From: Arenicellaceae bacterium
Lineage (GTDB): Bacteria > Pseudomonadota > Gammaproteobacteria > Arenicellales > Arenicellaceae
DNA length: 64,000 nucleotides
Assembly: GCA_029246505.1 (NCBI GenBank)
Contig: JAQWNC010000006.1
Coordinates: 62,001 to 126,000, forward strand
Direction: 5' to 3'
Shown here: positions 4,026 through 44,552 of the stretch, in pieces
Numbering within the stretch: position 1 is the first letter of the stretch
How the letters are laid out: every line of letters begins with the position of its first letter
Notes under the pieces: model-generated
What the model saw: the letters and a program-made list of their open reading frames with translations, nothing else
Told to the model about the DNA's origin: nothing
The model's database searches: none
Made by a program: the position numbers and the translations under genes

Positions 4026-5555
4026 CTAATTCTGCGGCGGATGAGGTACCCGGGGTGGCTGCGGGCTCATTTGGCTCAAATCCTTGCCAGCGAGGCCCGG
4101 AAAGCCCGGCGAAATCTTGATCGCACGGAATGCCATGTAAAAGTTCGGTGCGTTATCTTCCATCAGTTTCTCATGAAACGGTAAGTCAGGCTCACCGGCG
4201 TACGGGCTCCAATACTCCCAGACGATCTCGCCTTCTTGCGTGACTTCGAAAAATCTTCCCTGCGCACCCGATGCGATAAAGGTATTACCGCTCGGCAAGC
4301 GGTGTGCGCTCGAAATAAATGGCGAGTGAAAAGATGGTCCATCATTCGCCATATAGATCCAGGCAGGAAAATTAGGCCCAAATTGCTCTCCATCTTCAAT
4401 GACGTAGCGGCCTTGATCGTCCATTGGTGGGGCGAGCTCGACAACAACAGACTGGTTGCCACGCGGGCCGGGGAAATTATTCATGAACAGCGTAATATTA
4501 CCCGCACCCGAGAGTCCTTCTTCAATCCAACGAACGTGATGCTGGTTGTATAGCGACTGCGGCCGGTCGCCGCCACGATCATAATTAGAGGCGCGCCCCC
4601 AGCGATAAAGAATGTCACCCCCCTTCCCTGATCTTCCGCCCGCGCTACTGGACGCTTCTTCAGTCGATGTGCTGTGATCGATAACCCAGAACTCCCCAAA
4701 ACTATTGGAGCTCATAACAATTTGATCCAGTTCTGGGTTGTAGGATATGCTGTTGAAGTGCATAAAGTCGGGCGCAGTGGGATTCTCGTCTGCATCGAGT
4801 TGCGCGATTTCGCTGCTACCACGAAGTTCTTCGAGTCGTGCTCCGGATACGCTCATCGCATCGCTATTGATATTGACCAGCTCGGGGTGTTCGGAAACCA
4901 CGCCATAATTCGCGGCATCCGGGTCAAAGTCCTGGATGAGATGATCCCAGACATGCCATTCCCAAACGACGCGCGCATTGTCATAGCCGAGCGGCTCTAG
5001 CTCGAGAATGGCTTCGGGCCAAAGCCCTGTTTCCGTTAAAACGTCGGGCCGGCGTGCCGCGTCTCGCGCCTGCTCCGCTGACTTGTATTCCCAGACGACA
5101 GCCAGCACGTTGCCGTTCGGCAATAGCGCAATGTCATGATGCTGGTAGTAGTCTTCGTTCGCGAGGCGGTAATCCCAGACGAGTTCACCTTCCCAGGTCC
5201 ACTCCTGAATCTGCCCGCCTTGACCACCTGCATGATGTGGGTGATCCGCAATTCTGCCGGCTCGTACGACATTGCCGTTCTCGCGCATGTAGACACTGTG
5301 ACCGGTGCCGTGGTCGGATTGCCACACATTGATTGCCTGACCGTCATTATCGATCAAATACGTGCGGCCGGAATTCGCAGGGCTAAACAAAACGTAGCCC
5401 GGAGATGCCTGGTCTGAGTTAATGCGAATGCCACGCGCCTCATCGAGTGCTCCAGGAACCTGAGCGTAGATCGGGCCGACGGTGATGATGAAAAACGAGG
5501 ACGAAATCAGAAGCGCTGGCCATCGACGCAGTGGCGTTACCGAGTAGTTGGTCAT
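4026..5555 (-). CDS. Arylsulfotransferase-family (ASST-like) exported protein
   Basis: 509-aa beta-propeller protein resembling the arylsulfotransferase (ASST) family, whose characterised members move sulfate between phenolic donors and acceptors in the periplasm without PAPS. The start at 5555 is chosen because it opens a signal peptide (hydrophobic region about residues 14-33, ending I-Y-A-Q); the ribosome-binding site is weak. Repeated propeller blades carry H-H-D-I-A-L-L-P-N-G-N, N-Q-H-H-V-R and S-A-H-R-L-P-S-G-N motifs plus repeated Trp-Glu/Trp-Asp turns. Assignment to the wider family is safe; actual sulfotransfer is inferred. Its position between sulfatase and oxidoreductase genes supports a role in aryl sulfate or phenol handling. 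Confidence 0.78.
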   Translation of the reverse strand: MTNYSVTPLRRWPALLISSSFFIITVGPIYAQVPGALDEARGIRINSDQASPGYVLFSPANSGRTYLIDNDGQAINVWQSDHGTGHSVYMRENGNVVRAGRIADHPHHAGGQGGQIQEWTWEGELVWDYRLANEDYYQHHDIALLPNGNVLAVVWEYKSAEQARDAARRPDVLTETGLWPEAILELEPLGYDNARVVWEWHVWDHLIQDFDPDAANYGVVSEHPELVNINSDAMSVSGARLEELRGSSEIAQLDADENPTAPDFMHFNSISYNPELDQIVMSSNSFGEFWVIDHSTSTEEASSSAGGRSGKGGDILYRWGRASNYDRGGDRPQSLYNQHHVRWIEEGLSGAGNITLFMNNFPGPRGNQSVVVELAPPMDDQGRYVIEDGEQFGPNFPAWIYMANDGPSFHSPFISSAHRLPSGNTFIASGAQGRFFEVTQEGEIVWEYWSPYAGEPDLPFHEKLMEDNAPNFYMAFRAIKISPGFPGLAGKDLSQMSPQPPRVPHPPQN

Positions 5556-5769
5556 TGGGGATTCTTGGAGCAGCAAGTTATTGTTGTAACTGAGTCTAAC
5601 AATTAGTCGCCGTAAAGTGGTGAATAATTGACAAACCGCGTAAGTGATGACGGTCGGCTTACGCCAGCAGCAATCACCGTTAGCCCGAACGCTCCATGAA
5701 GGCGGGCAATATCGATAAAGAAAGTTCGCTCGCCGTATCAATGGCAAGCCGCGATAGTCATAGTCAGAA

Positions 5770-7443
5770 TCAGATCTCGTTATTGTTCGCTGCAGCGGTA
5801 ATGTGTTCTGCAGCACGGAACGCCAATGCCATGATGGTCATCGTCGGCTGGCCGCGCCCGGACGATACCAGGCTCGAACCGTCGCAGATGAACAGGTTCG
5901 ATACGTCGTGACTTCGGTGATAGCGATCAACGACCGATGTTTCAGGGTCATCACCCATCCGGCAAGTACCAAGTAAATGTCCCCCTCCAGTACCCGATTT
6001 AGCGGGTGAGCTCCATTGTTCGACTGCGCCGGCAGCTTCCATCATCTGTTCCGCAAAGCCCTGCATATAAGCGACATTGGCAATATCATCTTGATGTTCC
6101 CGGTAGGTCATGCGCAAGGAGGGCCGTCCATACTTGTCTTTATGGGTCGGGTCGATCGTGATGTTATTCCGGTCGAGTGGTAGGTTAGTCCCGCTAGCCA
6201 CGACCGCCATCTGGCGGGTGAAATTGTGTGCCAAACGATCTTTGAATTCAGCACCCCATTGCGGTCCATCCGGCCGCTGCCCAGCCAGGGAATACCAAAT
6301 TGGCGTCGCCGACATAAGCGGTCTAGCAGTGAACCCACCGCCCCCGTAGTAGCCACGCGTTGGATCAGACTCATACAAGTGGTCGTGGACTATCTGTGTT
6401 ACTTGAACACCCTTGTAATCGTTCAGTTGATGCTCAAAAACGGCCTGTACATTTGTGTGCGCATTCATCATTAGGTTCTTGCCAACAAAACCACTTGAAT
6501 TAGCAAGGCCATCTGGATACCTAGAACTCTCCGAAAGCAACAGCAACCGTGGAGTCTCAGCGCCGTTCGCTGACAACACGGCAGCGCGTGCTTTCTGGCT
6601 ACGTTGATTGCCATTTGAGTCGAGATACTGAACCTCGCTAATCTTGCCATCAGCGCCAGTTTCAAGTTTATAAACCGCACACCCAGCCCGAATCTCGCAA
6701 TTACCACTGGCTATCGCGTGCGGGATCATAGCCGCTAATGTCGATGATTTGGCCCCGACCTCGCAACCATAGCCCAGACAATAACCGCAATTAATACAAC
6801 CGGGACGACCGTTATGCGGTTGCGACAAAATCGCAAGCGGCGCAGCTTGCGGAGTTAGGCCGATAGCCTCGGCGCCTTTCTTCAGCAACACACCCGAAGA
6901 CTTGATCGGTATTGGTGGCATGGGGAAAGGCTTCGATCGCGGTGAATCGAACGGCCCGGGGGCACCGGACACACCAATATCCCAATCCACTTTGGTATAA
7001 TAAGGTTCTAATTCCCCGTAAGTAATAGGCCAGTCGGCAAAGTTTGTTCCTTCAATAGACCCTACAGCGCTCCGTTCCTTGAAGTCAATTTCACGAAAAC
7101 GCCAGAAATTTGCAGTAAAGTGTACGCTGGCACCACCCACACCTTCGTAGTAACGGGCCGGATTTCGACCTGGCTTTACCTTGGCGACTTTGCTTTCATC
7201 ATCGCGAAATGTCTGAATATTATCGGCCGCCCTACCACCTCCAATCGAATCGTCGACATTGACGTCTAATTCATCGTGGGTGAAGTCTTTGGCTTCGCGA
7301 AACGGGCCTTGCTCCAATACCACAACACTAAAACCGTTGGTCGAGAGTTCTTTGGCAATTATGCCACCGGCGGAACCTGAGCCAATAACAACGAAATCTA
7401 CCGCTTCGTCCAGCGGATATACCACCTTATTCTCAATTGCCAT
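5770..7443 (-). CDS. GMC-family FAD oxidoreductase (gluconate 2-DH type)
   Basis: 557-aa flavoprotein that oxidises an alcohol group, of the GMC family as found in gluconate/sorbitol dehydrogenase large subunits. The FAD-binding G-S-G-S-A-G-G is at residues 21-27. A cysteine-rich segment (C-I-N-C-G-Y-C-L-G-Y-G-C) is typical of the bacterial membrane-dehydrogenase subgroup, and the C-terminal block has G-T-C-R-M-G and G-Q-P-T-M-T-I. The start at 7443 has GGAGGAG 8 nt upstream and overlaps the small-subunit gene by 11 bp, a strong sign of translational coupling. No signal peptide is visible, so export would be by hitchhiking on the Tat signal of the partner. The sugar or alcohol substrate is unknown. 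Confidence 0.92.
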   Translation of the reverse strand: MAIENKVVYPLDEAVDFVVIGSGSAGGIIAKELSTNGFSVVVLEQGPFREAKDFTHDELDVNVDDSIGGGRAADNIQTFRDDESKVAKVKPGRNPARYYEGVGGASVHFTANFWRFREIDFKERSAVGSIEGTNFADWPITYGELEPYYTKVDWDIGVSGAPGPFDSPRSKPFPMPPIPIKSSGVLLKKGAEAIGLTPQAAPLAILSQPHNGRPGCINCGYCLGYGCEVGAKSSTLAAMIPHAIASGNCEIRAGCAVYKLETGADGKISEVQYLDSNGNQRSQKARAAVLSANGAETPRLLLLSESSRYPDGLANSSGFVGKNLMMNAHTNVQAVFEHQLNDYKGVQVTQIVHDHLYESDPTRGYYGGGGFTARPLMSATPIWYSLAGQRPDGPQWGAEFKDRLAHNFTRQMAVVASGTNLPLDRNNITIDPTHKDKYGRPSLRMTYREHQDDIANVAYMQGFAEQMMEAAGAVEQWSSPAKSGTGGGHLLGTCRMGDDPETSVVDRYHRSHDVSNLFICDGSSLVSSGRGQPTMTIMALAFRAAEHITAAANNNEI

Positions 7444-8026
7444 TGCTCTGCTCCTCCATATACTGGGCATCGTAATATCCGAACGGAGGCTGAGCCGCGC
7501 CAGGGCCGTCAAAGTCGATTAAATCCCAGGCCATATTATCTTTATTACCGCCGTAGGAACTCATGGCGAAAAAGCCCCACAATGTAAGGGTCTTAGCAAC
7601 GGAAAAAAACTGCATGGTCTCGTTTACGCCTATCCAGACATCTTGATCGGCTTCGCTCAAATCGGAGAATTTCAACGCGCCTTCAAATCGATCGGCAATG
7701 CCTTCCTGGAATTCTGCGAGACTGCTGCGAACACTTGGCAACATTTCGGAAAACTTCTCACCCAACACATTATCCATAAAATAGATGACACCGGCCTCGC
7801 GAGCCCCTGGGGTATCAGTGGTTGGCAAGATGCGTGCTGCAATCGCTTCGAGCTCAACGGCCTCGGAAGCGGTCAATGTGACGAACGCCGCGTCCTCGTC
7901 CCGTGCCGAACAGGCTGTTTGTGCAGCGGCCAGTATGGCCGGCACGCTCAGCCGCAGCAGGGAGCTACTAGCCAGTATTCCAGACCCTTGCATAAAGTGC
8001 CGCCGATTTAAGGTTTTGCTTTTCAT
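7433..8026 (-). CDS. Gluconate 2-dehydrogenase subunit 3 family protein (Tat)
   Basis: 197-aa small subunit that accompanies GMC-type dehydrogenases. The N-terminus carries a twin-arginine-like motif (N-R-R-H-F-M) followed by a hydrophobic stretch ending in A-A-A, so a folded complex with the downstream GMC flavoprotein is probably exported through Tat. The rest is helical and matches the subunit-3 family in length. The gene overlaps the flavoprotein gene by 11 bp. The third classical subunit, a multihaem cytochrome c that passes electrons to quinone, is not encoded nearby, so the electron acceptor is unclear. Confidence 0.86.
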   Translation of the reverse strand: MKSKTLNRRHFMQGSGILASSSLLRLSVPAILAAAQTACSARDEDAAFVTLTASEAVELEAIAARILPTTDTPGAREAGVIYFMDNVLGEKFSEMLPSVRSSLAEFQEGIADRFEGALKFSDLSEADQDVWIGVNETMQFFSVAKTLTLWGFFAMSSYGGNKDNMAWDLIDFDGPGAAQPPFGYYDAQYMEEQSNGN

Positions 8027-9764: not shown

Positions 9765-10664
9765 ATGAAGAGACAATTTAACTACGCCTTTGTCATCCTC
9801 AGTTTCATTTCTTCCGCTTCAGCGTGGTCTGCTTGCCTCAACTCGGGTGTCCAAATACAAATTCTCGGTTCCGGCGGGCCTGCCGACTCGGGTGGCCGAG
9901 CTTCTGCTTCGTACATTATCTGGATAAACGGAGTGAGCCGCATCATGCTGGATACTGGTAGCGGTACGAAAGACCAGTTTTATCGATCGGGCGCTAATCT
10001 CGACGACATCGAGTTAGTGGCCCTTAGCCATTTACATCCCGATCACTCGGTTGAACTGCCCGGTATTCTCTGGCCCGCGGGAGGACGCTTTGACATTGCC
10101 GGACCGTCCGGGGCTAACGTCTTTCCATCAATAGGAGAATTCCTAGAGCGATTGTTCGGTCCGCGTGGTGCCTATCATGTCTTGGACGAACGAATTGAAC
10201 TAACCCCAATTACCGTCGACGTTACCAGTCCCGACCCAGTCGAGGTCTGGCGAGCGGCCGACATTGTCATTCAAGGACGCGGCGTGCCCCACGGAGACGT
10301 ACCCACTATTGGCTATCGGCTCAATATCGGTGGCAGCAGCATTGCGTTTGCTAGTGATCAAACTGGATCCGATCCTACTTTTACCGATTTCATCCGAGGC
10401 GTCGATGTGCTCGTTATCCATATGAGTAGCACGGAGGATGCCACGGGGCTCATTTCCGAGTTACACGCCAAACCGAGCGTATGGGGTCAAATGGCAGCGG
10501 ACGCAGACGCGGGTCATCTGGTAGTAAGCCACATCGCGAGTTCATCAGTTGCGAATGCTCCCTTCTCGCCGCAGGTACTAAACCAGAGCTTGGCTTTCTT
10601 AACTAAAAATTACAGTGGGCCAATTACTGTTGGAGAGGACTTACTCTGTATTGAGGTAAATTAA
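9765..10664 (+). CDS. Exported MBL-fold hydrolase, AtsA/RNase Z-like
   Basis: 299-aa metallo-beta-lactamase-fold hydrolase with a signal peptide (about residues 1-23, ending W-S-A-C). The zinc motif H-L-H-P-D-H is at 89-94; further ligands probably lie in V-P-H-G-D, F-A-S-D-Q and V-S-H-I-A. The arrangement matches the RNase Z/arylsulfatase AtsA branch (PF12706 type), in which exported members include an arylsulfatase of a marine Pseudoalteromonas. A sulfatase or phosphodiesterase/lactonase role is therefore possible, but the exact reaction cannot be read from sequence. It stands alone, 214 bp downstream of the predicted -10 of the repeated control element, and convergent with the MFS gene. 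Confidence 0.8.
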   Translation: MKRQFNYAFVILSFISSASAWSACLNSGVQIQILGSGGPADSGGRASASYIIWINGVSRIMLDTGSGTKDQFYRSGANLDDIELVALSHLHPDHSVELPGILWPAGGRFDIAGPSGANVFPSIGEFLERLFGPRGAYHVLDERIELTPITVDVTSPDPVEVWRAADIVIQGRGVPHGDVPTIGYRLNIGGSSIAFASDQTGSDPTFTDFIRGVDVLVIHMSSTEDATGLISELHAKPSVWGQMAADADAGHLVVSHIASSSVANAPFSPQVLNQSLAFLTKNYSGPITVGEDLLCIEVN

Positions 10665-10752: not shown

Positions 10753-12108
10753 CTAATTCGATAATCTGCCATGATATCTCACCCTGAATATTAAACTCGC
10801 CACACAGGCACAGGCCATGGGAATCGCCGCCAAATAAAACATGGTATCTATAGAAAAATTACCAGCCAACATCGTACCACCGGCCACAGGGCCTAAAATC
10901 GAGGCTGTCCGTGATACACCATGCCCCCAGCTAATACCTGTCGCACGAATATGTGCTGGATAATATATTGAGGCAAGAGCGTTGGCCGAGTTTTGCCCGC
11001 CACCGACAAAGAAACCTGAGAAAAACACAGTGACCGCGACTAGGGCCGTCGTTGATAACAGCATGAATCCACCTGACGTACTGACCAGCCCTATAGAAGC
11101 AATAAACACGGCCGCCATAAAGTATAAGAAGGGTAGGATTCGATGAATACCGATTTTATCCGCAATCAACGCTACAACGATCGTGGCAATCGTAACTGCC
11201 ACTTGCATATTGGCCGTAATCAATGCCGCATTTTCCAGAGATACATTCATCTGGTAAATGATGGTAGGTAACCAAGCCATCAGAAAATAAAGGCTGAAAA
11301 GTCCGCCTGAGAACATAACCCAAAGCATCAGCGTTCCCAGTGAACGTCCACCGGTGAACAAGTTCTTGACCGACTGACCACCGATATCATTTTTGTTAAT
11401 ACAAAAGGCCGCGTCGTCCGAGACTTCTTTACTCGGATCAATCTTGCGCAAAATTGAGCGAATCAAGTTATCGCGGCCCCCACGTGCAACAAGAAACGTT
11501 GGTGATTCTGACAGCAGTGGAATCAAGGCAAAGGCGACCAAGATAGGAACAATCCCTCCCACCCATAGCATGGACTGCCAGCCATAGTCAGCGAGTAACA
11601 TCGCAGCAACCGCACCGCCTATAGCCGACCCCAACCCGAACCCCAAAAACATTAACATAACCAGCATCGCGCGACGACGCTTTGGACTAAATTCTGAGGT
11701 CAGCGCCATCGCATTCGGATAAGCCGCGCCAAGCCCTATGCCGGTCATAAAGCGCCAGAAACCGAGGCCTGTCAGGCTTTCCGCTGTTAATGTTGCAAGG
11801 GTACAAAAAGCAAAGAAAAAGGTTGCGCCAATAATGATTTTTTTTCTTCCGATGCGATCAGCTACCGGCCCGAAAACCAAGGCACCAATCATCATCCCAA
11901 ACAACCCAAGCCCAAAAATGGGCCCCAGGGAACCCGCCGGCAGCTCCCAATCTTCGCTTATTGCTGGGGCGATATAACCCAAAAGCTGTGCATCAAAACC
12001 GTCCAGGGCCACAACCAGAGAACACAGAGCCACAATACGAAGCTGAAACCACCCAATTGGACAGCTATCTATTCTCGTGGATACATTTACACTATTGGTT
12101 TGCGACAT
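10753..12108 (-). CDS. MFS transporter, aromatic acid:H+ symporter (AAHS) family
   Basis: 451-aa inner-membrane proton symporter with 12 predicted helices. TM1 holds D-G-F-D-A-Q-L-L-G-Y, the family hallmark D-G-F-D needed for substrate uptake in PcaK-type carriers. The loop after TM2 has the G-P-V-A-D-R-I-G-R-K-K pattern. Relatives import benzoates, protocatechuate, nicotinate and similar ring acids. The start at 12108 follows GAGGAAAA. It lies downstream of the enamidase-like gene in the same direction (119 bp gap), which suggests an N-heterocyclic or aromatic acid substrate. Confidence 0.9.
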   Translation of the reverse strand: MSQTNSVNVSTRIDSCPIGWFQLRIVALCSLVVALDGFDAQLLGYIAPAISEDWELPAGSLGPIFGLGLFGMMIGALVFGPVADRIGRKKIIIGATFFFAFCTLATLTAESLTGLGFWRFMTGIGLGAAYPNAMALTSEFSPKRRRAMLVMLMFLGFGLGSAIGGAVAAMLLADYGWQSMLWVGGIVPILVAFALIPLLSESPTFLVARGGRDNLIRSILRKIDPSKEVSDDAAFCINKNDIGGQSVKNLFTGGRSLGTLMLWVMFSGGLFSLYFLMAWLPTIIYQMNVSLENAALITANMQVAVTIATIVVALIADKIGIHRILPFLYFMAAVFIASIGLVSTSGGFMLLSTTALVAVTVFFSGFFVGGGQNSANALASIYYPAHIRATGISWGHGVSRTASILGPVAGGTMLAGNFSIDTMFYLAAIPMACACVASLIFRVRYHGRLSN

Positions 12109-12227
12109 TTATTTTCCTCAAAATCTCATTATGTATGTCTAAAAAAGGTGTTCTACAGATAGCTTGCGGTTTCGAATGCTAAGGTATTAGGCAGGCAACC
12201 GAACTATGATCAGTATCAGCTTAATAG

Positions 12228-13412
12228 TTAGTCCCAATTCATAGGCAATGATGTCTCTGCAACACGAATATGCTTACAGGGCGCCGGTGTGTTGCGGCTC
12301 TTGCCTACAAAACGTGGAACACCATCAGTAATTACCGAGCCTACAGAAACAACATCGCCGTTGCGCAAGGCATCCAGTGCATTGTCTTTCGATGAGCCCA
12401 AGCACGCGTCAACAATTAAAACGTCTGCATCACTCCCTACTCGAACGAGCCCCGAGTTCAATCCATAAACACGGGCGTTATTACCCGTAGCAGCCGCAAT
12501 CGCATGCTCAACCGGCATGTCCGTCAACGATGCCAGGTGGCTAATGGTATAGGTCATACCCAGCGGCATAATGCCACTGCCTGTCGGGGTATCTGTGGCA
12601 ATCAGAAAACGGTCAAATTGATCTTTCTCCACCACCATATCCGCGAGCATCAGCAAGGTTCTGAGGTTGCCTGCCGTACACACCTGCAGTGCAACATTGC
12701 TTTCGTTTACGATCCTAGGGAAATCATCATCCGGCATCGCCGCAGGGCCACCATTGACGTGGAAAGACACATGGGGATCCATGGCAATTACATGGTCGGC
12801 CCAGATACCGGCTGACCCTGGTATGGAAGCACCTCCGGTATGAACGGTCGTGATCATACCCGCCTTTTTAGCCATGGCAACGAGTGGGACGTAGTCATAG
12901 GGTGTTTTAACTGCACCAAATCCGGCCTTTGCAAGCCAGACACCTCTGTCGGCAACTTCCTTGAAGTCAGATTCAACCAGACCCGGCTCAAGGATGATGG
13001 ATCCAGCGTGAACCTTCATGCCGCCCGGTCGATAGTCTTTAAAACACTTATGCGCTGCCACGGCCAGTGCCTTAACACCCTCGGGGTCTTTTGGTCGGCC
13101 CGGCACATGAACTTCGGATGCACTTATGGCTGTTGTAGTACCACCATGTAGATAGCTCTCAAGGAAACCAACGGTTTTCTGGCGCGGTGTATAGTCGCCA
13201 AAGGTGTTGTGTATTTGTGAATCTATCAACCCCGGAATGACCGTGGCGCCATCTGCATCAATGATCACATCACAGTTAGATGTATCACTGTTGGAGAGGG
13301 TACCTACGCTAGCAATTAAGCCGTCTTCCATTAACAGACTGTCTGCGTTGGAAGTGGGTGTGCGCCAATCTCCTGTCACGATTTGTCCGATATTAACAAT
13401 TGCAGTTTTCAT
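12228..13412 (-). CDS. Enamidase-like amidohydrolase with altered metal site
   Basis: 394-aa amidohydrolase-superfamily protein. From memory of the family it is strikingly like enamidase of anaerobic nicotinate fermentation (opening of 6-oxo-tetrahydronicotinate): shared blocks include D-Y-T-P-R-Q-K-T, P-G-R-P-K-D, H-T-G-G-A-S-I-P-G-S, N-G-G-P, A-T-G-N-N-A-R-V-Y-G-L-N and K-S-R-N-T-P. The superfamily H-x-H metal motif, however, reads D-S-Q66-I-H68 here, so the first His is Gln, and the bridging acidic residue expected in the G-V-W segment is also absent (A-K-A-G). Later His and Asp ligands remain. It may use one metal ion, act on a different amide, or be non-catalytic. It is divergent from the DUF1185 gene. 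Confidence 0.78.
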   Translation of the reverse strand: MKTAIVNIGQIVTGDWRTPTSNADSLLMEDGLIASVGTLSNSDTSNCDVIIDADGATVIPGLIDSQIHNTFGDYTPRQKTVGFLESYLHGGTTTAISASEVHVPGRPKDPEGVKALAVAAHKCFKDYRPGGMKVHAGSIILEPGLVESDFKEVADRGVWLAKAGFGAVKTPYDYVPLVAMAKKAGMITTVHTGGASIPGSAGIWADHVIAMDPHVSFHVNGGPAAMPDDDFPRIVNESNVALQVCTAGNLRTLLMLADMVVEKDQFDRFLIATDTPTGSGIMPLGMTYTISHLASLTDMPVEHAIAAATGNNARVYGLNSGLVRVGSDADVLIVDACLGSSKDNALDALRNGDVVSVGSVITDGVPRFVGKSRNTPAPCKHIRVAETSLPMNWD

Positions 13413-13655
13413 TTTATATACCTAAAAATAGTTATCTATTCGAAGCAGCTATATTTGAGAATCGATCTACTAATAATTCTGCACTGTCAGCTTCTGCGGC
13501 TAGTGTGAATGGCAAATCGCGAATAAAGGCATGACATCAAAGCCTTCTAGTGGCAACAAGTTACTTCTTGTATCGTCAATGCGCTAATGAAATAATCTTA
13601 TCATTATTTTCAATATTTATTCATTGTCCCAACTCAACATTTTGGAAAGGGCGTT

Positions 13656-14258
13656 ATGTACGAAAATAACCTTTCGGTTTTTCATGTAAGGAAGTGGCAC
13701 AGCTTCGTTGAAGAAACCCTGGCTAATGAAATAGGTGTTTTGGCCGATGGTGAGCCAGTGGTTAAGATTACCGTGGCGGCCACCATAAAGAACCCCTATG
13801 CGGGAAAGTTTGTCGAAGACTTAAGTATGGTGGTTGATGCCTCCCCAGAATTAGGTAATGAGTTTGGCAAGCGTATTATTGAAGCAGCTGCGGGTCGTAC
13901 CATCATGAGTTACGGAAAGGCCTGTATCGTGGGTGATGCTGGTGAGTATGAGCATGGCAATGCGTTCTTGACTAATGACTTTGCTAACCCGATTCGAAAA
14001 GCGATTGGCGGTGGTCAATCCTGGTTCCCATCTACCGGTAAGCGAGGCCCTTCAGGGTGCACTATCGATATACCTCTAGGTCATAAGGATGCTCTCTATG
14101 TGCGAGCTTGTTATGACACGGTGACGGCCTCCTTTGGCGACTCACCTGCCAGTGACGAAGTGGTCATTGCCATTGTCGTGGCAACAAGAGGACGTTTACA
14201 CGCGCGTCTTGGTGGATTGACCCACGAAGAAGCCAAGGGCAATAATGGGCTAACCTAA
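13656..14258 (+). CDS. DUF1185 / 'amino acid synthesis' family protein
   Basis: 200-aa protein of the PF06684 (DUF1185) family, misleadingly named amino acid synthesis. Visible family blocks are N-P-Y-A-G, V-G-D-A-G-E-Y-E-H-G and K-R-G-P-S-G-C-T-I-D-I-P-L. No catalytic activity is firmly established for the family to my knowledge; members are often next to hydantoin-, pyrimidine- or N-heterocycle-related amidohydrolases. ATG at 13656 has a GGAAAGG site. It heads a rightward set with the CMD protein (41 bp later) and the cupin, opposite the enamidase-like gene, with a 243 bp shared upstream region. Confidence 0.85.
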   Translation: MYENNLSVFHVRKWHSFVEETLANEIGVLADGEPVVKITVAATIKNPYAGKFVEDLSMVVDASPELGNEFGKRIIEAAAGRTIMSYGKACIVGDAGEYEHGNAFLTNDFANPIRKAIGGGQSWFPSTGKRGPSGCTIDIPLGHKDALYVRACYDTVTASFGDSPASDEVVIAIVVATRGRLHARLGGLTHEEAKGNNGLT

Positions 14259-14299
14259 AATTGATTGATAGTGGCTTATGGACAAAATTGTGGTGAACC

Positions 14300-14728
14300 A
14301 TGGCGAGTAATGATCATTTTGAGTTAGGTCGTAAAATAAGAACCGATGTTCTTGGTTCAAAGAGAGTTAAAGAGCTTCTTGATAATGCAGATGATTTTAA
14401 TCGCCCGCTGCAAGAGCTCGTGACGGAGTACTGCTGGGGAAAATGTTGGGGTAGTGAAGGTTTGGATCGCAAGCAGAGGAGCTTGTTGAATTTGGGTATG
14501 TTGGCGGTACTTAATCGACCGTCAGAGTTTTCATTGCATTTTGAAGCGGCGATCGGAAACGGTTTAACGCTGAAAGAATTGAGAGACGTTTTGATTCAAA
14601 TCACGATTTACTGTGGTGTGCCCGCGGGTATTGAAGCTCAGCGACTAGCCAACACTGTCATTGCTAACCTGCGCGAAGCTGGAGATCTTCGAGAAGCTGA
14701 TTTCCAAGACTTATCTATAGGTGATTGA
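14300..14728 (+). CDS. Carboxymuconolactone decarboxylase family protein
   Basis: 142-aa protein of the CMD/AhpD superfamily, closest in layout to PcaC-like gamma-carboxymuconolactone decarboxylases: a Y-C-W-G-K-C-W-G segment, then L-N-L-G-M-L-A-V-L, a conserved His in S-L-H-F-E-A-A and the tail motif I-Y-C-G-V-P-A-G. The two cysteines in C-W-G-K-C are an addition relative to PcaC and could be redox-active as in AhpD. The gene lies 41 bp after the DUF1185 gene. In context a decarboxylase or lactone-handling step in ring-acid breakdown is likely, but no dedicated protocatechuate genes are present. Confidence 0.88.
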   Translation: MASNDHFELGRKIRTDVLGSKRVKELLDNADDFNRPLQELVTEYCWGKCWGSEGLDRKQRSLLNLGMLAVLNRPSEFSLHFEAAIGNGLTLKELRDVLIQITIYCGVPAGIEAQRLANTVIANLREAGDLREADFQDLSIGD

Positions 14729-14953
14729 TTATACATATAATTTTCTTGTCGGAGAAACTTTTATCGTTAAAAACCCGAGAGAAGGAGAGTTAACCTTCTG
14801 AAGTAAACACAGAGTAGCTGACATATTTTGAATAGGTTGTATTACGAATAATCATTGGACTTTAATGACCTATTTTTTGTCTTACTTATCGTATTGATTT
14901 GGAAGAAGAAATTTCACTAAAAATACTAAGAATATTTAAGCAAGGTAAAGACT

Positions 14954-15550
14954 ATGTCTAAGAAGAAGACGATTAAAGAATTTGTTACCTACTGGGGCAG
15001 TTCCATCAGTGATTGGACCAGTGGAAGAGAAAAACGATTTGTTATTGAGCGAGATGAAGACCTCCTGAATAACGGTCTTCTCTATGGTGGCAAGAAGATG
15101 GAGAAGGTATCGTTAAACGATATATTTTCTGACGATGTGGTCACGGGTGTGGATATGGAAAATGGCTATCTTCCGTTAGTGCTATATGCCAATGAAGATA
15201 TGATTATTGAAGTGGCGAACTGTGACGATGTACAGGATGGTTGGCATAGGAACATCGGTGCAGATGAGTTTGCTTTCCAGTACAAAGGTAGTCGTACCCT
15301 TCGGAGTGAAACGGGGCCTATTACGATTAACGAAGGTGAAATGACGGTGATTCCTCGAGGGGTTGCGCATCAGAATGTGGGGCATGGGCCGAATATTGAA
15401 ATCACGATTTACGCCCGTAATCCGTTGAAGCGTCTTGCGCCTTTGGATGCGGAAGAAGCGCGTGAGCGAATGAAGATGAAAGATGGCGAGCCAGTGGTTG
15501 AACCGAATGATTTAAGCTCACGCGATTGGGATTGGTCGTCTTCTCAATAA
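14954..15550 (+). CDS. Cupin protein, homogentisate-dioxygenase-like
   Basis: 198-aa single-domain cupin. The metal-binding pattern is complete and resembles ring-cleaving cupin dioxygenases: W-H98-R-N-I-G-A-D-E105 and later G-V-A-H139-Q-N. The W-H-R-N...D-E...F-Q-Y-K-G string is the same style as in homogentisate 1,2-dioxygenase and its short relatives. The start at 14954 follows AAGG. It is separated from the CMD gene by 225 bp that contains a small AGAAGG/CCTTCT hairpin (14780-14799), so it may have its own promoter. A ring-cleavage or oxygenase role is inferred; the C-terminus is rich in acidic residues. Confidence 0.78.
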   Translation: MSKKKTIKEFVTYWGSSISDWTSGREKRFVIERDEDLLNNGLLYGGKKMEKVSLNDIFSDDVVTGVDMENGYLPLVLYANEDMIIEVANCDDVQDGWHRNIGADEFAFQYKGSRTLRSETGPITINEGEMTVIPRGVAHQNVGHGPNIEITIYARNPLKRLAPLDAEEARERMKMKDGEPVVEPNDLSSRDWDWSSSQ

Positions 15551-15620
15551 GTCATTAGGGTGTAGTCGCGAACCGACTAGTGCTGCTCGGTGAACGGATG
15601 TTGGAATGGGGCCACGCAGC

Positions 15621-16619
15621 TTAACGCTCCAGAGGCCGAATCCACGCTTTGGTCTTACCGCTAAATCGAGATATTCCGTCGAACATCCCCCACTCTGCGA
15701 TTGACGTAGGGGACGGCGGAATATCTCTGGGAGACCAGGTTTCGTCTGCGAAATCGTTATCTGCGAAATACTCGATATTACCGCCGCAGGGATTCTGAAA
15801 ATACCAAAAATACGCGCAGGACGTTGCGTGGCGGCCGGGGCCAAACTGAGTTTGCCAGCCTTTATCTTTGATATACAAACCACCGCCGAAAACCTCGTGA
15901 ATGTCGCACACTTCGAACGCCGCATGCTCGAAGTGAGGCTCTGTGACGTTCGTTCGAAAAAAAGCAATGTTGTGGTGATCGCTTCGGGCAGCGCAGCGTA
16001 AGAATGCCGCCTTTCCTGGGTACCGGTCCGTGAGCCAAAAGCCCAGTCTGTCTCGATAAAACTTTTCAGCGGCTTCGACGAACGGCGTCTGGAAGACGAC
16101 GTGACCTAAGCGCAACGGCGTCGCGCGTTTACAATTAGTGCCGGGCTCTCCGACACGCTCTCGTCGGCCGGGTGAGTTCACTGGTTGCGGCTGGCTTTGG
16201 ATTTCTTTAGGAGTGAAGGCTGAAAAACCAACGCCGAAGCCGTTTGGGTCTTTCGTGTGAATAGTTCCATCGCTATCGAGAGATAATTCGAGATCTTTAC
16301 CAAGATCTTCCGCTATCTCGCCAAGCGCTGCTAAGTCACCTACGCCCCAGATAATCTCCTGCAGTCCTGGTACACCGCTATCTCCATCATACTGCCTAAG
16401 AAATATCTTTTGACCGATGGGCGTCTCCCAGATCGACCCTCGCGAGTTACTTTCGGTTTCGATCACTCCCCAGTCGGAGAGAAAACGATGACACAGCGGT
16501 AAGTCTTCTACCGCGTAGACAAGCGTCGCGATACCGGTGAAACGATCCGGGTTCGCGATGGCTAACTCTGTCTGTTGATCTAGCGAACCGTTGCCAACCA
16601 ACTCTTCCTCTTCTATCAC
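15621..16619 (-). CDS. VOC-family extradiol-dioxygenase-like protein
   Basis: 332-aa protein with two vicinal-oxygen-chelate domains. The N-terminal half (to about residue 135) lacks ligands, as in type I extradiol dioxygenases. The C-terminal domain has the full facial triad pattern: His173 (L-G-H-V-V-F), His232 (F-E-H-A-A-F) and Glu283 (N-I-E-Y-F). Such enzymes cleave catechol-type rings next to the hydroxyls. The start codon overlaps the stop of the alpha/beta hydrolase gene by 4 bp (ATGA), so they are translationally coupled. The ring substrate is unknown; a glyoxalase-like isomerase remains possible. Confidence 0.82.
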   Translation of the reverse strand: MIEEEELVGNGSLDQQTELAIANPDRFTGIATLVYAVEDLPLCHRFLSDWGVIETESNSRGSIWETPIGQKIFLRQYDGDSGVPGLQEIIWGVGDLAALGEIAEDLGKDLELSLDSDGTIHTKDPNGFGVGFSAFTPKEIQSQPQPVNSPGRRERVGEPGTNCKRATPLRLGHVVFQTPFVEAAEKFYRDRLGFWLTDRYPGKAAFLRCAARSDHHNIAFFRTNVTEPHFEHAAFEVCDIHEVFGGGLYIKDKGWQTQFGPGRHATSCAYFWYFQNPCGGNIEYFADNDFADETWSPRDIPPSPTSIAEWGMFDGISRFSGKTKAWIRPLER

Positions 16620-17428
16620 TGGTCGTCTACCTCCTTCAGAAACTCAAGAATATGTCTGTTAAATTCCGCCGGATTATCCAGATTAGAAAAATGGCTCGCA
16701 TCTGGAATCGTTACGAATTTGCCATGTGGGATTTTCTCAACCGTCGCTTCCACTGCTTTCATGACGGGATCACCGGTACCCGCCATGATAAGGGTGGGTA
16801 CTTTTATTTCATTCAGTCTGTCGGCGACTGGGTCGGCGCTAATAAGTGACCAAACACTGTGAGCGTAGCCATTGGCGTCACAATCTAGGTACATCTGCCT
16901 GACAATTTCCTGCTGCTCCCAACCTTGCTTTGTATAACTGATCATATTCAAATTCGAGCGGTGTGCCTCATCGGCGACCGCTTCCATACCGTGTTCTAAG
17001 GCAAGCTTAATCGTCCTGTGGCGCATCTCCAGCATACCGGGAGGTTGTGGTAGACCGGAGGCTGAAGCAGATGCAATCAGTAGAAGACTAGCTACCATAT
17101 CCGGGTGGTTAAGACAAAGTCTCACGGCGGAGCCTGCACCTAGCGATTGCCCGCCAATGTGTGCCTTTTCAATTTCTAGGTGATCAAGCAGGTTTTTGAG
17201 GTCTATTGCGAACGTCTGTAATCCGTAAGCGTCCTGATTTGCGGGCTTGTCGGATTTTCCGTGGCCGCGGTGATCCCAAAGTATCAGCTGGTACCGGGAT
17301 GCGAGGTCGTCAATATTGGGGCCCCAGTATTTGGTGCTACCACCCAATCCATAGGTCAATGCGAGGGGGAAGCCTTCCCCATGTATCTCGTAATAAATTG
17401 TGACATCGTCAGATTGAAAAGTTGGCAT
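16616..17428 (-). CDS. Alpha/beta hydrolase (enol-lactonase / C-C hydrolase type)
   Basis: 270-aa cytosolic alpha/beta hydrolase. Nucleophile Ser95 sits in G-G-Q-S-L-G; the acid is probably in M-A-G-T-G-D, and the His in D-A-S-H-F. The W-D-H-R-G-H-G-K-S-D segment before the nucleophile is typical of 3-oxoadipate enol-lactonases and meta-cleavage C-C hydrolases. It follows the MFS gene by 35 bp and overlaps the VOC gene by 4 bp, giving an operon MFS - hydrolase - extradiol enzyme. That order suits import of a ring acid, ring opening, then hydrolysis of the product. The exact bond cleaved is inferred. Confidence 0.87.
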   Translation of the reverse strand: MPTFQSDDVTIYYEIHGEGFPLALTYGLGGSTKYWGPNIDDLASRYQLILWDHRGHGKSDKPANQDAYGLQTFAIDLKNLLDHLEIEKAHIGGQSLGAGSAVRLCLNHPDMVASLLLIASASASGLPQPPGMLEMRHRTIKLALEHGMEAVADEAHRSNLNMISYTKQGWEQQEIVRQMYLDCDANGYAHSVWSLISADPVADRLNEIKVPTLIMAGTGDPVMKAVEATVEKIPHGKFVTIPDASHFSNLDNPAEFNRHILEFLKEVDDQ

Positions 17429-17463
17429 TTAAGTCTCTCAATATGGAGCAATAGATCATAGGT

Positions 17464-18822
17464 TTATCCTAGTGATGCGGGTCCTGTTTTCCCAGACCGC
17501 GTAACGCGTTCCATATAATACATTATAATGGCCGCCACCAGCGCAGGGGTAGCAATCACATAAAACAGTTCCTTAACATCGAGGCCTACCTTCAGCAGCA
17601 TCCCTGCATAGAGGGGACCGCAAATCGCACCAAAGCGGCCCCAACCCACGACAGCCGCGACACCAGTTGAACGGATGGCGACTGGGTAAAAGTTTGACGA
17701 TAGGGGGTTGGACATCGCTTGCCCAGCCGTCACACAGTAGCCCGCACCAAACACAACTACCGCGCCAAGAATCAGGTTTTGAGTTGACAGACCAATAAGT
17801 GCGGTGAATGCCGCCGCGCCCACATAATTTGTGGCGATGATGCGTAGCGGGCGCGTACTTTTATCTGAAAAGTATCCGGTCGAAACCGCACCGATCATGC
17901 TACCCGCGTTAAAGACGACGGAAGAAGCTATAGCGATGCGTAGGCTATGGCCGGCCTGGGTGAGTAGGGTAGGCAGCCATACACTGATAAAATAGATTAT
18001 CAGCAAATTGATATAGGATATAAGCCAAAGCGCCAGGGTTCCTTGTGTCCGACGGGCCGCAAACAGGTGCCTAAGGGCGACTCCCTGTGCATTGTGTTCT
18101 GTCTTCGGTAAAACGAACTCGTCGTTCGCGGAGAGCTTCTCGGCCGACGCGATTCGGTTCAGGTAGGCGGCAATCTTTGCGTTACTCTCCTTTCCCTTCG
18201 TAATAAGAAAGGGGATCGATTCTGGCAAGTACCTCATCAAGAATATTGACAGCAGGATTGGCAAAACGCCGCCGAACGCGAAGACCGAGCGCCAGCCGAA
18301 AAAAGTGATGAGCTCCGCGCTAATGAGGCCGCCAAGAACACCACCGAGCGGGAAACCCGCAAACATCACGACGACCATGAGGTACTTGCGCCGTTTCGGT
18401 GAGTACTCGGTGGTCAGGGCGACGATGTTTGGCATTGCGCCGCCTAATCCCAGGCCGGTGAGAAATCGTAATATCATGAGCTGATCAACGGTTTGGGAGA
18501 ACGCCGTTAGCAACGAGAACAAACCAAAAATGAATGTCGAGGCGACAATTACAGTCTTTCGACCGTAGCGGTCGCCGAGTGCGCCGATTAGCGTGGCGCC
18601 GACGAGCAAGCCGATTAGCGCAGCGGAAAATACCGGTCCGAGATCAGGCATTGCGATGCCGAATTCGAGGCTGAGCGCAGGGCCGACAAATCCAATCGCA
18701 AAAGTATCGAAGCCGTCGAGCAGTGCAACGGCGCTACAGGATGCGACGATCACAATCTGGAACCGACTCAGCGGCTCGCTGTTGATTACGTCTGCCGGGC
18801 GGACTTGTCGAGCATCAGCCAT
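17464..18822 (-). CDS. MFS transporter, AAHS family (second copy)
   Basis: 452-aa 12-helix carrier of the aromatic acid:H+ symporter family, with D-G-F-D-T-F-A-I-G-F-V in TM1 and G-D-R-Y-G-R-K-T in the loop after TM2. It is clearly related to, but distinct from, the carrier at 10753. It is the first gene of the operon with the alpha/beta hydrolase and VOC enzyme. The duplicated 105-bp control element ends 64 bp upstream of its start, with the conserved TATACT box 69-74 bp from the ATG. Two different AAHS carriers in one locus suggest two ring-acid substrates or a substrate/intermediate pair. Confidence 0.9.
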   Translation of the reverse strand: MADARQVRPADVINSEPLSRFQIVIVASCSAVALLDGFDTFAIGFVGPALSLEFGIAMPDLGPVFSAALIGLLVGATLIGALGDRYGRKTVIVASTFIFGLFSLLTAFSQTVDQLMILRFLTGLGLGGAMPNIVALTTEYSPKRRKYLMVVVMFAGFPLGGVLGGLISAELITFFGWRSVFAFGGVLPILLSIFLMRYLPESIPFLITKGKESNAKIAAYLNRIASAEKLSANDEFVLPKTEHNAQGVALRHLFAARRTQGTLALWLISYINLLIIYFISVWLPTLLTQAGHSLRIAIASSVVFNAGSMIGAVSTGYFSDKSTRPLRIIATNYVGAAAFTALIGLSTQNLILGAVVVFGAGYCVTAGQAMSNPLSSNFYPVAIRSTGVAAVVGWGRFGAICGPLYAGMLLKVGLDVKELFYVIATPALVAAIIMYYMERVTRSGKTGPASLG

Positions 18823-34358: not shown

Positions 34359-35243
34359 CTATTCCGAGGCCGGAGCTGCCGAGTAGACCACCTGACGTGA
34401 TCCCCTGATAAAACCAAGCAGGTTTAGGTTTATCTCATTGGCGACCTCGATCGCCAATGTGGTTGCAGCCGATATCGTAACAAGCGTTCCAATTCTAGCA
34501 ATCGCAACCTTGGCAATCAGTTCATGGCTGGCACGGCTGGACATTAGTACAAAATAATCTGGCTCAGTGTTGTCTAGTTGCGCGCCAATGAGTTTATCTA
34601 GCGCATTATGCCTACCAACGTCCTCGCGGATTGCCAGCAACTTTCCTGTCCTATCGAACATTCCGGCACAGTGCACACCACCGCAACTATTTTGTATGAG
34701 CTGATTTTTTTGCAGGATTTCTACCGCCTGGTTTATTGTTCGGTGGCCAGGTAATTTAGTTTGAATCATCGGTTCCAGATTTGGTACCGCAGCTTCCAGA
34801 TCAATGATGCCGCAGATACCACAGCCGGAGCGACCGCTCATTTGTCGGCGCTGGCGTTCGAGTCTTTCCATCAGATGTTGTTTGATTTTCAGCTGTATGG
34901 TGACGCCTTTCCTTGCATTGCGGATATCGACATCCAGGATGTCGTCAGCCGAGTCGACTATTCTTTCAGTGATGCTGAAGCCGATGGCAAAGTCGTGCAG
35001 ATCGATCGGGCTCGCCATCATTACTGCGTGGCTTTGTCCATTGTAGGCAAAAGCAACTGCGACTTCGTCGGCTATTAGGTCCTGCTTTATCTTCAGGTTT
35101 TGACCGGAACAGCGCTCGAAAACGGTTCGCTCGACAATACCTGACCGGTCGTTTACTTTTATTACTTCACGCTTCGATCTATCAGTCTCTGGAAGCGATT
35201 TAAGAGAATGGACCAGCGTCTGTTTAGACTGTTTGCTCATCAT
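34359..35243 (-). CDS. fdhD: Formate dehydrogenase accessory sulfurtransferase FdhD
   Basis: 294-aa cytosolic FdhD/FdsC-type protein that transfers sulfur from a cysteine desulfurase to the molybdenum cofactor of formate dehydrogenase. The redox pair Cys141 and Cys144 lies in G-R-S-G-C-G-I-C-G. The first half contains the family block A-I-G-F-S-I-T-E, and later G-G-V-H-C-A-G and E-D-V-G-R-H-N-A-L-D. It overlaps the end of the alpha subunit gene by 20 bp, the last gene of the fds operon. No small FdsD gene follows. Confidence 0.95.
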   Translation of the reverse strand: MMSKQSKQTLVHSLKSLPETDRSKREVIKVNDRSGIVERTVFERCSGQNLKIKQDLIADEVAVAFAYNGQSHAVMMASPIDLHDFAIGFSITERIVDSADDILDVDIRNARKGVTIQLKIKQHLMERLERQRRQMSGRSGCGICGIIDLEAAVPNLEPMIQTKLPGHRTINQAVEILQKNQLIQNSCGGVHCAGMFDRTGKLLAIREDVGRHNALDKLIGAQLDNTEPDYFVLMSSRASHELIAKVAIARIGTLVTISAATTLAIEVANEINLNLLGFIRGSRQVVYSAAPASE

Positions 35244-38163: not shown

Positions 38164-38178
38164 AACTATAACCTTACT

Positions 38179-39723
38179 CTATTTAAAGTCATCACTAAAA
38201 TGTTCCAGCGCACTTCTTATCGGAAATGGTGTCATGCCGCCCATGGCACATAATGAACCATTTTCCATTGTGTCGCACAAACTGTTCAGTAAGTCGAGGT
38301 TAGAGTCTCGATCTTCGTTGGAGCAGATTTTATCAATCACTTCGACGCCACGAACCGAGCCGATGCGGCAAGGCGTGCATTTGCCACATGATTCAACCGC
38401 ACAGAACTCCATGGAAAATCGTGCCTGTTGCGACATATCCACCGTATCGTCAAACGCCACCAGGCCGCCGTGACCGAGTACGCCCTTTATGGCTGCCAGT
38501 TGCTCATAATCCATTTCGACCTGCCATTGCGATTCCGGCAGATAGGTACCCAGCGGGCCTCCCACCTGCACTACCCGCAGCGGCCGGCCAGATGCGCTAC
38601 CGCCACCGTAATCGTATAGCAGTGAATGCAGGGTTACCCCGAAACCTAGCTCGACCAGCCCGGGCTGCTTTAAATTGCCAGCGAGCTGAAATGGCATGGT
38701 GCCACGAGATCTACCCATACCGAAATCCTTATAGTAGTCGGCACCTTCGGCGAAAATAATGGGTATGCTGGACAGGGAGATTACGTTATTAACCACCGTC
38801 GGTTTACCAAACAGCCCTTCCAGCGCTGGCAGGGGTGGTTTGGCACGAACTTCACCGCGTTTACCTTCCAGGCTTTCGAGCATCGAGGTCTCTTCACCAC
38901 AGATATAAGCTTTAGCCCCAAGCCTTACTTGGATATTGAAATTTTTACCGCTGCCAAGAATATCCTTGCCGAGAAAATTGTGTTCGGTGGCAATGGCGAT
39001 TGCCTGTTCAAGGATCGCATGTGCATGCGGGTACTCTTCACGCAGGTAGATATAGCCCATATCAGCGCCAACTGCGATTCCTGCGATGGTCATACCTTCG
39101 ATCAGGGCAAATGGGTCAGCCTCCATTTGTAGGCGGTCGGCGAACGTCCCGGAATCGCCTTCGTCAGCGTTACAGGTAATATATTTTTGCCCGGCTGCGG
39201 CTCCCGCATCGAGTACGGTTTGCCACTTAATACCGGTCGGGAAAGCAGCACCCCCGCGGCCTCGTAAGCCGGATTTCTTAACTTCATCCACGCATGCCTG
39301 GCAACTCATGGTAATTACGCGCTTCAAGCCTTTAAAGCCATCGTGTGCCTGGTAATCCCGAATGCTGAGCGGATCAATTAACCCGATGCGTTTAAAGGTG
39401 AGTCTTTGCTGATTTTTTAAGTATGGAATCTCTTCGGTTAGGCCCTGGCTGAGCGGGTGTGCCTGTGCACCTTCAAGCAATCCCTGCTCTATCAAACTGT
39501 CTACATCATCGGCGCCCACCGGACCATAAGCTACCCGGCCTGCATCAGTTTCAACTTCAATCATTGGCTCAAGCCAGAAAAGACCACGCGAACCGTTGCG
39601 AACAAATTCAACCTCTTTATTACCCAGACTTGCTACCAGCCGTTCGGCTAGCCGGTCAGCAACTGTATCCGCACCGACTGAAATGGCGCTGGAGTCTTGC
39701 GGTATGTAAATACGAGGCGTCAT
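38179..39723 (-). CDS. fdsB: Formate dehydrogenase beta subunit (NuoF-like)
   Basis: 514-aa NADH-generating subunit. A thioredoxin-like N-terminal region is followed by the NuoF-like FMN/NAD domain (R-G-R-G-G-A-A-F-P-T-G; C-N-A-D-E-G-D-S-G) and the 4Fe-4S motif E-S-C-G-K-C-T-P-C-R near the C-terminus. It passes electrons from the alpha subunit to NAD+. The start overlaps the gamma subunit stop by 4 bp (ATGA). Confidence 0.96.
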   Translation of the reverse strand: MTPRIYIPQDSSAISVGADTVADRLAERLVASLGNKEVEFVRNGSRGLFWLEPMIEVETDAGRVAYGPVGADDVDSLIEQGLLEGAQAHPLSQGLTEEIPYLKNQQRLTFKRIGLIDPLSIRDYQAHDGFKGLKRVITMSCQACVDEVKKSGLRGRGGAAFPTGIKWQTVLDAGAAAGQKYITCNADEGDSGTFADRLQMEADPFALIEGMTIAGIAVGADMGYIYLREEYPHAHAILEQAIAIATEHNFLGKDILGSGKNFNIQVRLGAKAYICGEETSMLESLEGKRGEVRAKPPLPALEGLFGKPTVVNNVISLSSIPIIFAEGADYYKDFGMGRSRGTMPFQLAGNLKQPGLVELGFGVTLHSLLYDYGGGSASGRPLRVVQVGGPLGTYLPESQWQVEMDYEQLAAIKGVLGHGGLVAFDDTVDMSQQARFSMEFCAVESCGKCTPCRIGSVRGVEVIDKICSNEDRDSNLDLLNSLCDTMENGSLCAMGGMTPFPIRSALEHFSDDFK

Positions 39724-40202
39724 TTTTGGTCGCCTGCTTGTCTAAGATTCTCAATCAGGCTCACGACACTGTGGCTGGTGACCCGTCCGTAAATTTGCGA
39801 GTTGATTTTTACCGTCGGGGAACAAGCGCAATTACCAAGGCAGTACACCGGCTCTAGAGTAAATTTGCCACATTCGGTAGTCTCTTCAAAGTTGACCCCC
39901 AATGCACTTTTAACAGTGGCTTCAATTTTACGGCCGCCCATGGCCTGGCAAGATTCCGCACGGCAGACTTCGATCACGTTCGTGCCCTGTGGCGAGGTAG
40001 TGAAGCTAGGGTAGAAACTGATCACTCCATGCACTTCGGCTCGCGACAAATTCAGTGCCTTAGCGATGATACCCACCTGGTCAGCGGGAATATGCCCCAG
40101 GTTGTTCTGTACCTGGTGCAGAATGGGCAGCAATGCACCTTCTAAATGATGATTGGCGTCGATGGCCGTATTAACGGCACCGGTATTTTTGCTATCACTC
40201 AT
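39720..40202 (-). CDS. fdsG: Formate dehydrogenase gamma subunit (NuoE-like)
   Basis: 160-aa 2Fe-2S subunit with the thioredoxin-like ferredoxin motif C-R-A-E-S-C-Q-A ... C-L-G-N-C-A-C-S-P. ATG at 40202 is preferred over an upstream TTG (40223); neither has a strong ribosome-binding site. First gene of the fds operon; the promoter should be within 40203-40517. Confidence 0.95.
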   Translation of the reverse strand: MSDSKNTGAVNTAIDANHHLEGALLPILHQVQNNLGHIPADQVGIIAKALNLSRAEVHGVISFYPSFTTSPQGTNVIEVCRAESCQAMGGRKIEATVKSALGVNFEETTECGKFTLEPVYCLGNCACSPTVKINSQIYGRVTSHSVVSLIENLRQAGDQK

Positions 40203-40272
40203 TGGATTCTGGCTGCATAACAATTTGATAGTAATTGCTTTAATATGAAATTCAAAACATATTAAAATGGCT

Positions 40273-44328: not shown

Positions 44329-44552
44329 AACAGGTATACCTTTTGATATTTTTTCGATATTTCTTATTATATATATAATTTGGCGATATTTTGTGGACAA
44401 TTACAGCAAGTTTTTCTATTCTCACTAAATACGTAAGCAATGTGATGATTTTCACTGTTTATCAAATCAATACTGCATCTTGGGTGTAATAATCGATTTA
44501 ACCGCAAAAACGCATACTGTATTAACGTAAATCGTAAACATAAGGTAATAGT

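Follow-up and report, generated by a model that had tools for sequence, protein, structure and literature searches.

Gene content and annotation of the locus

The 64,000-nucleotide stretch of the Arenicellaceae bacterium genome considered here (the window) carries, at positions 10753-18822, a group of eight genes that an initial annotation had read as a candidate cluster for the degradation of a ring acid. The grouping was borne out, since all eight genes named beforehand are intact and uninterrupted open reading frames (ORFs), and an ORF check together with Pfam and NCBIfam searches confirmed the superfamilies to which they had been assigned. The evidence supports a ring-acid catabolic locus that is real, intact and accessory, and in which no textbook gene set is complete. 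Contig C3, to which the window belongs, is one of 30 contigs of a genome that measures 2.64 Mb and is 97.5% complete. The locus is accessory, because a genus-mate (G001) has no enamidase, DUF1185, cupin, carboxymuconolactone-decarboxylase-family (CMD) or VOC homologue at the thresholds used. The main interest of the locus lies outside the window, in the conserved pairing of an enamidase-family amidohydrolase with a DUF1185 protein and in a clade of these amidohydrolases that carries Gln in place of a His metal ligand.

The genes form three transcription units. On the reverse strand, the gene for the enamidase-family amidohydrolase (12228..13412, 394 amino acids (aa), Amidohydro_1, with the Gln-clade motif Q66-I-H68) is followed downstream by MFS1 (10753..12108, 451 aa, PF07690 155 bits), which resembles aromatic-acid/H+ symporters (AAHS). 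The forward-strand unit consists of the DUF1185/AA_synth protein (PF06684; 13656..14258, 200 aa), the CMD protein (14300..14728, 142 aa, PF02627 56 bits) and an orphan cupin (14954..15550, 198 aa). The third unit, again on the reverse strand, begins with a second symporter-like porter, MFS2 (17464..18822, 452 aa, PF07690 169 bits), and continues with a PcaD/esterase-like alpha/beta hydrolase (16616..17428, 270 aa, PF00561 110 bits) and a VOC-fold extradiol-type dioxygenase (15621..16619, 332 aa, Glyoxalase/VOC). The hydrolase and VOC genes overlap by 4 bp, and the cupin and VOC genes converge at 15550/15621. From the gene layout and a reading of the sequence, the divergent intergenic region between the enamidase and DUF1185 genes (13413..13655) probably holds the promoters of both. 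A scan of the locus region for promoters and terminators gave no excess over shuffled sequence, and a repeat scan gave nothing notable.

The two transporters had been called AAHS importers. TIGR00895 (AAHS) is the best or near-best model for both, but MFS1 scores 349 bits and MFS2 365 bits, below the curated cut-off of 418.55, and the name is therefore the nearest label and not a threshold that was reached. MFS2 also scores 372 bits against the PcaK model. The extradiol-type VOC enzyme had been predicted to have intact ligands, and this holds: H172, H231 and E283 align with the ligands of catechol 2,3-dioxygenase, the acid-base second-sphere His positions are kept, and the structures matched are 3B59, 1MPY and 1F1R. 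The protein thus has the 2-His-1-Glu set and second-sphere His of VOC extradiol dioxygenases such as HpaD and catechol 2,3-dioxygenase (C23O), and its gene overlaps that of a partner hydrolase. It differs from them in that its scores come nowhere near the curated cut-offs of the named subfamilies (HpaD, C23O and BphC), with 67 bits to the HpaD model TIGR02295 vs a cut-off of 321. The alpha/beta hydrolase has the Ser-His-Asp motifs and matches esterase and enol-lactonase structures; its score with TIGR02427 is 144 bits, below the cut-off of 255.85. The cupin, described earlier as homogentisate-type, has the motif WHRNxxxDEF...H with H98, E105 and H139, which is like that of homogentisate dioxygenase, but the family label did not stand: no Pfam family matched, and the best NCBIfam match, to a 3-hydroxyanthranilate dioxygenase model, scores 19.6 bits vs a cut-off of 220. 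The same three residues are present in a relative from comparison locus L045. The predicted structure of the cupin, made from a two-sequence alignment, is poor (pLDDT 30).

Pairing of the enamidase-family protein with DUF1185

The enamidase-family protein matches the enamidase of Eubacterium barkeri (6-oxo-1,4,5,6-tetrahydronicotinate hydrolase, 2VUN) from end to end, with 345 bits and residues 2-380 aligned on 3-380. One scan of 84,980 species genomes yielded relatives at 80 loci, with identities of 44-77%. A DUF1185 gene lies within 5 kb at 66 of these 80 loci, and at 51 of the 59 where both 5-kb flanks are present; at 52 of the 80 it is directly adjacent on the same strand. The pair is spread from Betaproteobacteria to Chloroflexi and anaerobic Bacillota. 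The window's genome has a single DUF1185 copy, and DUF1185 is present anywhere in 18 of 100 sampled relatives of this genome. If about one copy per 3 Mb is taken, the probability of chance proximity is estimated at well under 1%. No paper describing the pairing was found in a literature search made largely without subscription papers, and the partnership is apparently new to the literature.

The initial annotation had suggested comparing the neighbourhood of enamidase, DUF1185 and CMD across genomes. The first two proved to be the conserved part; for CMD, membership of the conserved set is not supported. In the window it starts 41 bp after DUF1185, and its product scores 110 bits against TIGR02425 (PcaC), below the cut-off of 155.7. 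Of 109 genomes in the order, 77 have a homologue, nearly always a single one; identities reach 67%, and most copies are not near DUF1185. A conserved CMD-DUF1185 unit was considered and rejected: outside the window, the two genes are beside each other only in two genomes of the order, L133 and L134, and more loosely in L099, and are apart in the others sampled. Position is what suggests, weakly, that CMD takes part in the pathway.

The genes around the pair hint at the kind of compound involved. Neighbours were counted over all 91 comparison loci, a few of which are plasmid loci chosen only for their DUF1185 or VOC gene, and gene calls in GC-rich loci were made comparatively, since ORF length alone is unreliable there. 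Aerobic loci have HpaB-type monooxygenases (22 loci), succinate-semialdehyde dehydrogenase (SSADH; 20), FAD monooxygenases nearest to PnpA and HspB (17), UbiD (nine) or Rieske oxygenases (seven), and molybdenum hydroxylases were found at 19 loci. Nine anaerobe-type loci (L102-L104, L106-L108, L110, L112 and L116) carry DUF1185, an enamidase with a bridging Glu, a 4Fe-4S protein and molybdenum hydroxylases. No curated model matched the 4Fe-4S protein, which, from what is known of the nicotinate pathway, we take to be hydroxynicotinate reductase. The anaerobic members of the family have both a probable hydroxynicotinate reductase and DUF1185 among their neighbours. The window locus differs from nicotinate fermentation (ndh-hnr-ena) in that no 6-hydroxynicotinate reductase is found among the genes of the cluster, to which this search was confined, no genome-wide search having been made. 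The occurrence of SSADH, a hydroxynicotinate-reductase-like protein, molybdenum hydroxylases or flavin monooxygenases at the paired loci supports a function with ring acids. The heteroaromatic acid proposed earlier as the substrate fits these partner genes, and an N-heterocycle as the substrate class is moderately supported.

DUF1185 proteins have had crystal structures since 2010 and have no assigned reaction. The window protein is a clear member (211 bits to PF06684, gathering cut-off 27), and its model (pLDDT 94) superimposes on 3BYQ with a Z score of 27.0 and a root-mean-square deviation of 1.5. A RidA-like enamine deaminase role was attractive, since earlier comparisons had related both RidA and DUF1185 to the fold of Bacillus chorismate mutase (BCM). 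It was set aside, as the confident Foldseek matches are DUF1185 entries only; by VIA-align the model gives Z 5.5 with Rid and Z 5.0 with BCM, level with unrelated folds. Two DUF1185 proteins have been placed in catabolic pathways: HcdD belongs to a 7-hydroxycoumarin operon and is induced by 7-hydroxycoumarin (PMC7913881), and TgnF is reported to stimulate succinic semialdehyde dehydrogenase in trigonelline catabolism (PMC7913881). As in the tgn and hcd clusters, the window DUF1185 is beside ring-catabolism genes, and hcd also has a cupin near DUF1185. Unlike them, the window cluster has no luciferase-like oxygenase, alcohol dehydrogenase or SSADH, and has an enamidase instead. With a partner of known reaction, the enamidase, that is fixed in both aerobes and anaerobes, the search for the DUF1185 substrate has a definite starting point.

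Variations among DUF1185 genes were also observed. Cys152 of the window protein is His in 72 of 76 sequences, and its nearest relatives retain the His. L136 has a tandem DUF1185 pair (1362-2497), one of them broken by TAA, with a reductase-like gene and an enamidase alongside. At L033-L036 (Burkholderia, Variovorax and Novosphingobium), DUF1185 is part of a conserved cluster with a TPP enzyme, SDR, a sialidase-like protein, a small VOC protein, an alpha/beta hydrolase and SSADH, to which the Burkholderia and Variovorax clusters add an MhpA-like hydroxylase. This cluster is a further uncharacterised catabolic set.

A proposed pathway and the number of loci

It is plausible, although we would put it slightly short of an even chance, that the locus forms an accessory catabolic island, with which the cell takes up and degrades a single aromatic or heteroaromatic acid or two related acids. 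The AAHS-type porters would import the ring acid, and the VOC enzyme and/or the orphan cupin would open the ring. The alpha/beta hydrolase could then cut the ring-opened product. The enamidase-family hydrolase would act on an enamide (C=C-N-C=O) from the opened N-ring and release the nitrogen, and DUF1185 may act on the same intermediate or on its aldehyde product. A succinate-semialdehyde-type dehydrogenase would oxidise the aldehyde; an SSADH homologue (42%) is encoded on the contig of the window, some 20 kb beyond it. What the sequences themselves show are the gene content, the associations conserved between loci and the residue states; we infer each of these reactions from the protein families, and likewise the substrate, the order of the steps, the chemistry of DUF1185 and the joining of three units in one pathway. 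If the locus serves an N-heterocycle it adds an uncharacterised route for ring nitrogen, and it is a testable lead on microbial use of nitrogen-containing rings.

Several observations weigh against the island as proposed. The substrate is not readable from the sequence, and among the genomes and loci compared there is no second locus with the whole gene set. CMD, as an order-wide gene, is weakly tied to the cluster, and the enamidase-family protein has lost one metal ligand (see below). Neither HpaB nor a Rieske alpha subunit is encoded in the genome, and the two proteins with full-length FAD_binding_3 matches (111 and 95 bits) look like ubiquinone-type hydroxylases. The VOC relatives on plasmids belong to a conserved Rieske/SDR/cupin/hydrolase/aspartate-dehydrogenase/MFS cluster in which enamidase and DUF1185 are absent. 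Should a ring hydroxylase be needed, a molybdenum hydroxylase would be the best candidate, which would point again to an N-heterocycle; the domain has ten matches in about nine xanthine-dehydrogenase-type genes of the genome.

The cupin offers a link between two of the units. Among 30 genomes (that of the window, one genus-mate and 28 with enamidase relatives), close cupin relatives are found in only two others. In L045 the gene order is LysR, cupin (73% identity), FAD monooxygenase, SDR, a short metallo-beta-lactamase-like ORF and enamidase (75%). In Pigmentiphaga kullae a cupin (75%) stands after a divergent LysR gene and before transporter genes, flavin-reductase-like sequence and an HpaB-type monooxygenase, and within the family of Pigmentiphaga the relative is found in one of 268 genomes, that of P. 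kullae itself. Cupin and enamidase thus have a regulator and a monooxygenase as common partners and are directly linked in L045, and this is the best evidence that in the window the enamidase goes with the DUF1185-CMD-cupin unit. L045 is titled as a Klebsiella pneumoniae metagenome-assembled genome, a label that is probably wrong, as the genes on it look like those of Betaproteobacteria or other environmental bacteria. A putatively exported metallo-beta-lactamase-fold hydrolase is encoded at 9765-10664 of the window, and the L045 cupin and enamidase likewise have a metallo-beta-lactamase-like ORF beside them.

The VOC-hydrolase-MFS2 unit may contribute to this pathway or may be independent of it and serve a separate meta-cleavage pathway. 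Two unrelated loci could have come to lie side by side, with MFS1-enamidase/DUF1185-CMD-cupin serving one ring compound and MFS2-hydrolase-VOC cleaving a catechol-type acid as an ordinary meta-cleavage unit. We regard this as a possibility to be taken seriously, though a doubtful one. The VOC relatives (about 41-43% identical) in Burkholderia, Caballeronia, Novosphingobium and Acinetobacter, which cluster with a Rieske oxygenase, hydrolase, aspartate dehydrogenase and MFS in the absence of enamidase and DUF1185, speak for it, as do the convergence of the cupin and VOC genes and a transporter in each half. Against it, the three units are closely packed in a 2.64-Mb genome and have two similar porters, and clusters elsewhere join ring-hydroxylating oxygenases and a VOC protein with DUF1185. 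Within the order, VOC relatives at E 1e-35 are found in three other genomes only, and a search of plasmids at E 1e-30 found no relative of the alpha/beta hydrolase. In the one VOC cluster compared for its cupin, that of Novosphingobium, the cupin proved unrelated to the window cupin.

A substituted metal ligand in the enamidase family

The metal site of the enamidase-family proteins was compared in an alignment of 88 sequences. H191, H218 and D274 of the window protein are invariant in all 87 others, and the bridging residue, K162 in the window, is Lys in 75 of the 87 and Glu in 12. The first His of the HxH motif is Gln in 31 of the 88, including the window protein, which reads SQIHN (Q66, H68), a feature that the initial annotation had not noted. 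The binuclear metal set is thus incomplete, with K162, H191, H218 and D274 kept and Gln66 in place of the first His. The window protein resembles the 2VUN enamidase in its full-length homology and in the equivalents of H191, H218 and D274, and differs from it in having Gln for the first HxH His and Lys for Glu at position 162. Because of Gln66 it is a member of the family by descent, and not a proven binuclear enamidase. The codon, read from the DNA, is CAA, and a base-call error or decay was rejected as an explanation, as 30 other sequences carry Gln. When the motif columns are left out of the tree, the window protein falls in a set of 20 members, all with Gln (SH-aLRT 97), and the tree requires at least four changes of the Gln/His state across the family. 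The loci of Q-type and H-type enamidases have the same neighbour genes.

NagA deacetylases differ at this position too: those with HxH are binuclear, and those with QxN are mononuclear and still work (PMC6016474). Since the QxN enzymes work, by analogy the Gln-type protein of the window is more likely a functional mononuclear enzyme than a dead one. For the amidohydrolase superfamily, the Gln clade amounts to a natural experiment on how metals are used.

It has to be asked whether the loss of the alpha-site His produced a mononuclear enzyme of another activity, such as a KpiC-like ring opening, and not an enamide hydrolase. KpiC, which is 28% identical to the enamidase, cleaves 3,4-dihydroxypyridine (PMC7356986), and the presence of Gln throughout the 20-member clade, with repeated changes of state in the family, would suit a change of function. 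The kpi cluster for 4-hydroxypyridine of Arthrobacter sp. IN13 also resembles the window locus in combining an amidohydrolase-family protein and an alpha/beta hydrolase with the opening of an N-heterocyclic ring. Unlike the enamidase, KpiC is an oxygenase (an amidohydrolase-family extradiol dioxygenase), and the FAD monooxygenase and FAA hydrolase of kpi are absent from the window locus. We consider another activity unlikely: the neighbours of the two types are shared, many Q-type loci already carry a monooxygenase, and Gln need not alter the reaction, because the QxN motif of NagA gives a working mononuclear deacetylase (PMC6016474).

We tentatively suggest, as a possible but far from secure reading, that the enamidase-family hydrolase and DUF1185 form a general, phylum-crossing module by which N-heterocycles, once opened or reduced, lose their nitrogen. 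DUF1185 would be an enzyme, so far unrecognised, that acts in the step following the enamidase. A large aerobic clade would have moved to a Gln-bearing and probably mononuclear site, and the window would add an unclassified cupin dioxygenase. A trigonelline-type route, in which DUF1185 and the alpha/beta hydrolase would serve a tgn-like pathway ending in succinic semialdehyde, is very improbable: relatives in the order do have operons of DUF1185, alpha/beta hydrolase, flavin reductase, luciferase-like monooxygenase and aldehyde dehydrogenase (L133 1733-6703, L135 7392-12436 and L137 9131-13971), and TgnF is a DUF1185 protein (PMC7913881), but no luciferase-like monooxygenase, flavin reductase or aldehyde dehydrogenase is among the genes of 10753-18822, and the window DUF1185 is about 37-40% identical to the copies in the tgn-like operons and up to 63% identical to others.

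Other genes of the window were also noted. A tight run on the reverse strand beside it (4026-8026) encodes an arylsulfotransferase-like protein, a GMC oxidoreductase and a gluconate-2-dehydrogenase-subunit-3-like protein. At 34359-40223 there is an NAD-dependent formate dehydrogenase set (FdhD, a molybdopterin alpha subunit, an FMN/4Fe-4S beta subunit and a small ORF), a common gene set that could use formate from a deformylation. A TRAP transporter (41379-44400) is located upstream of this set on the same strand.

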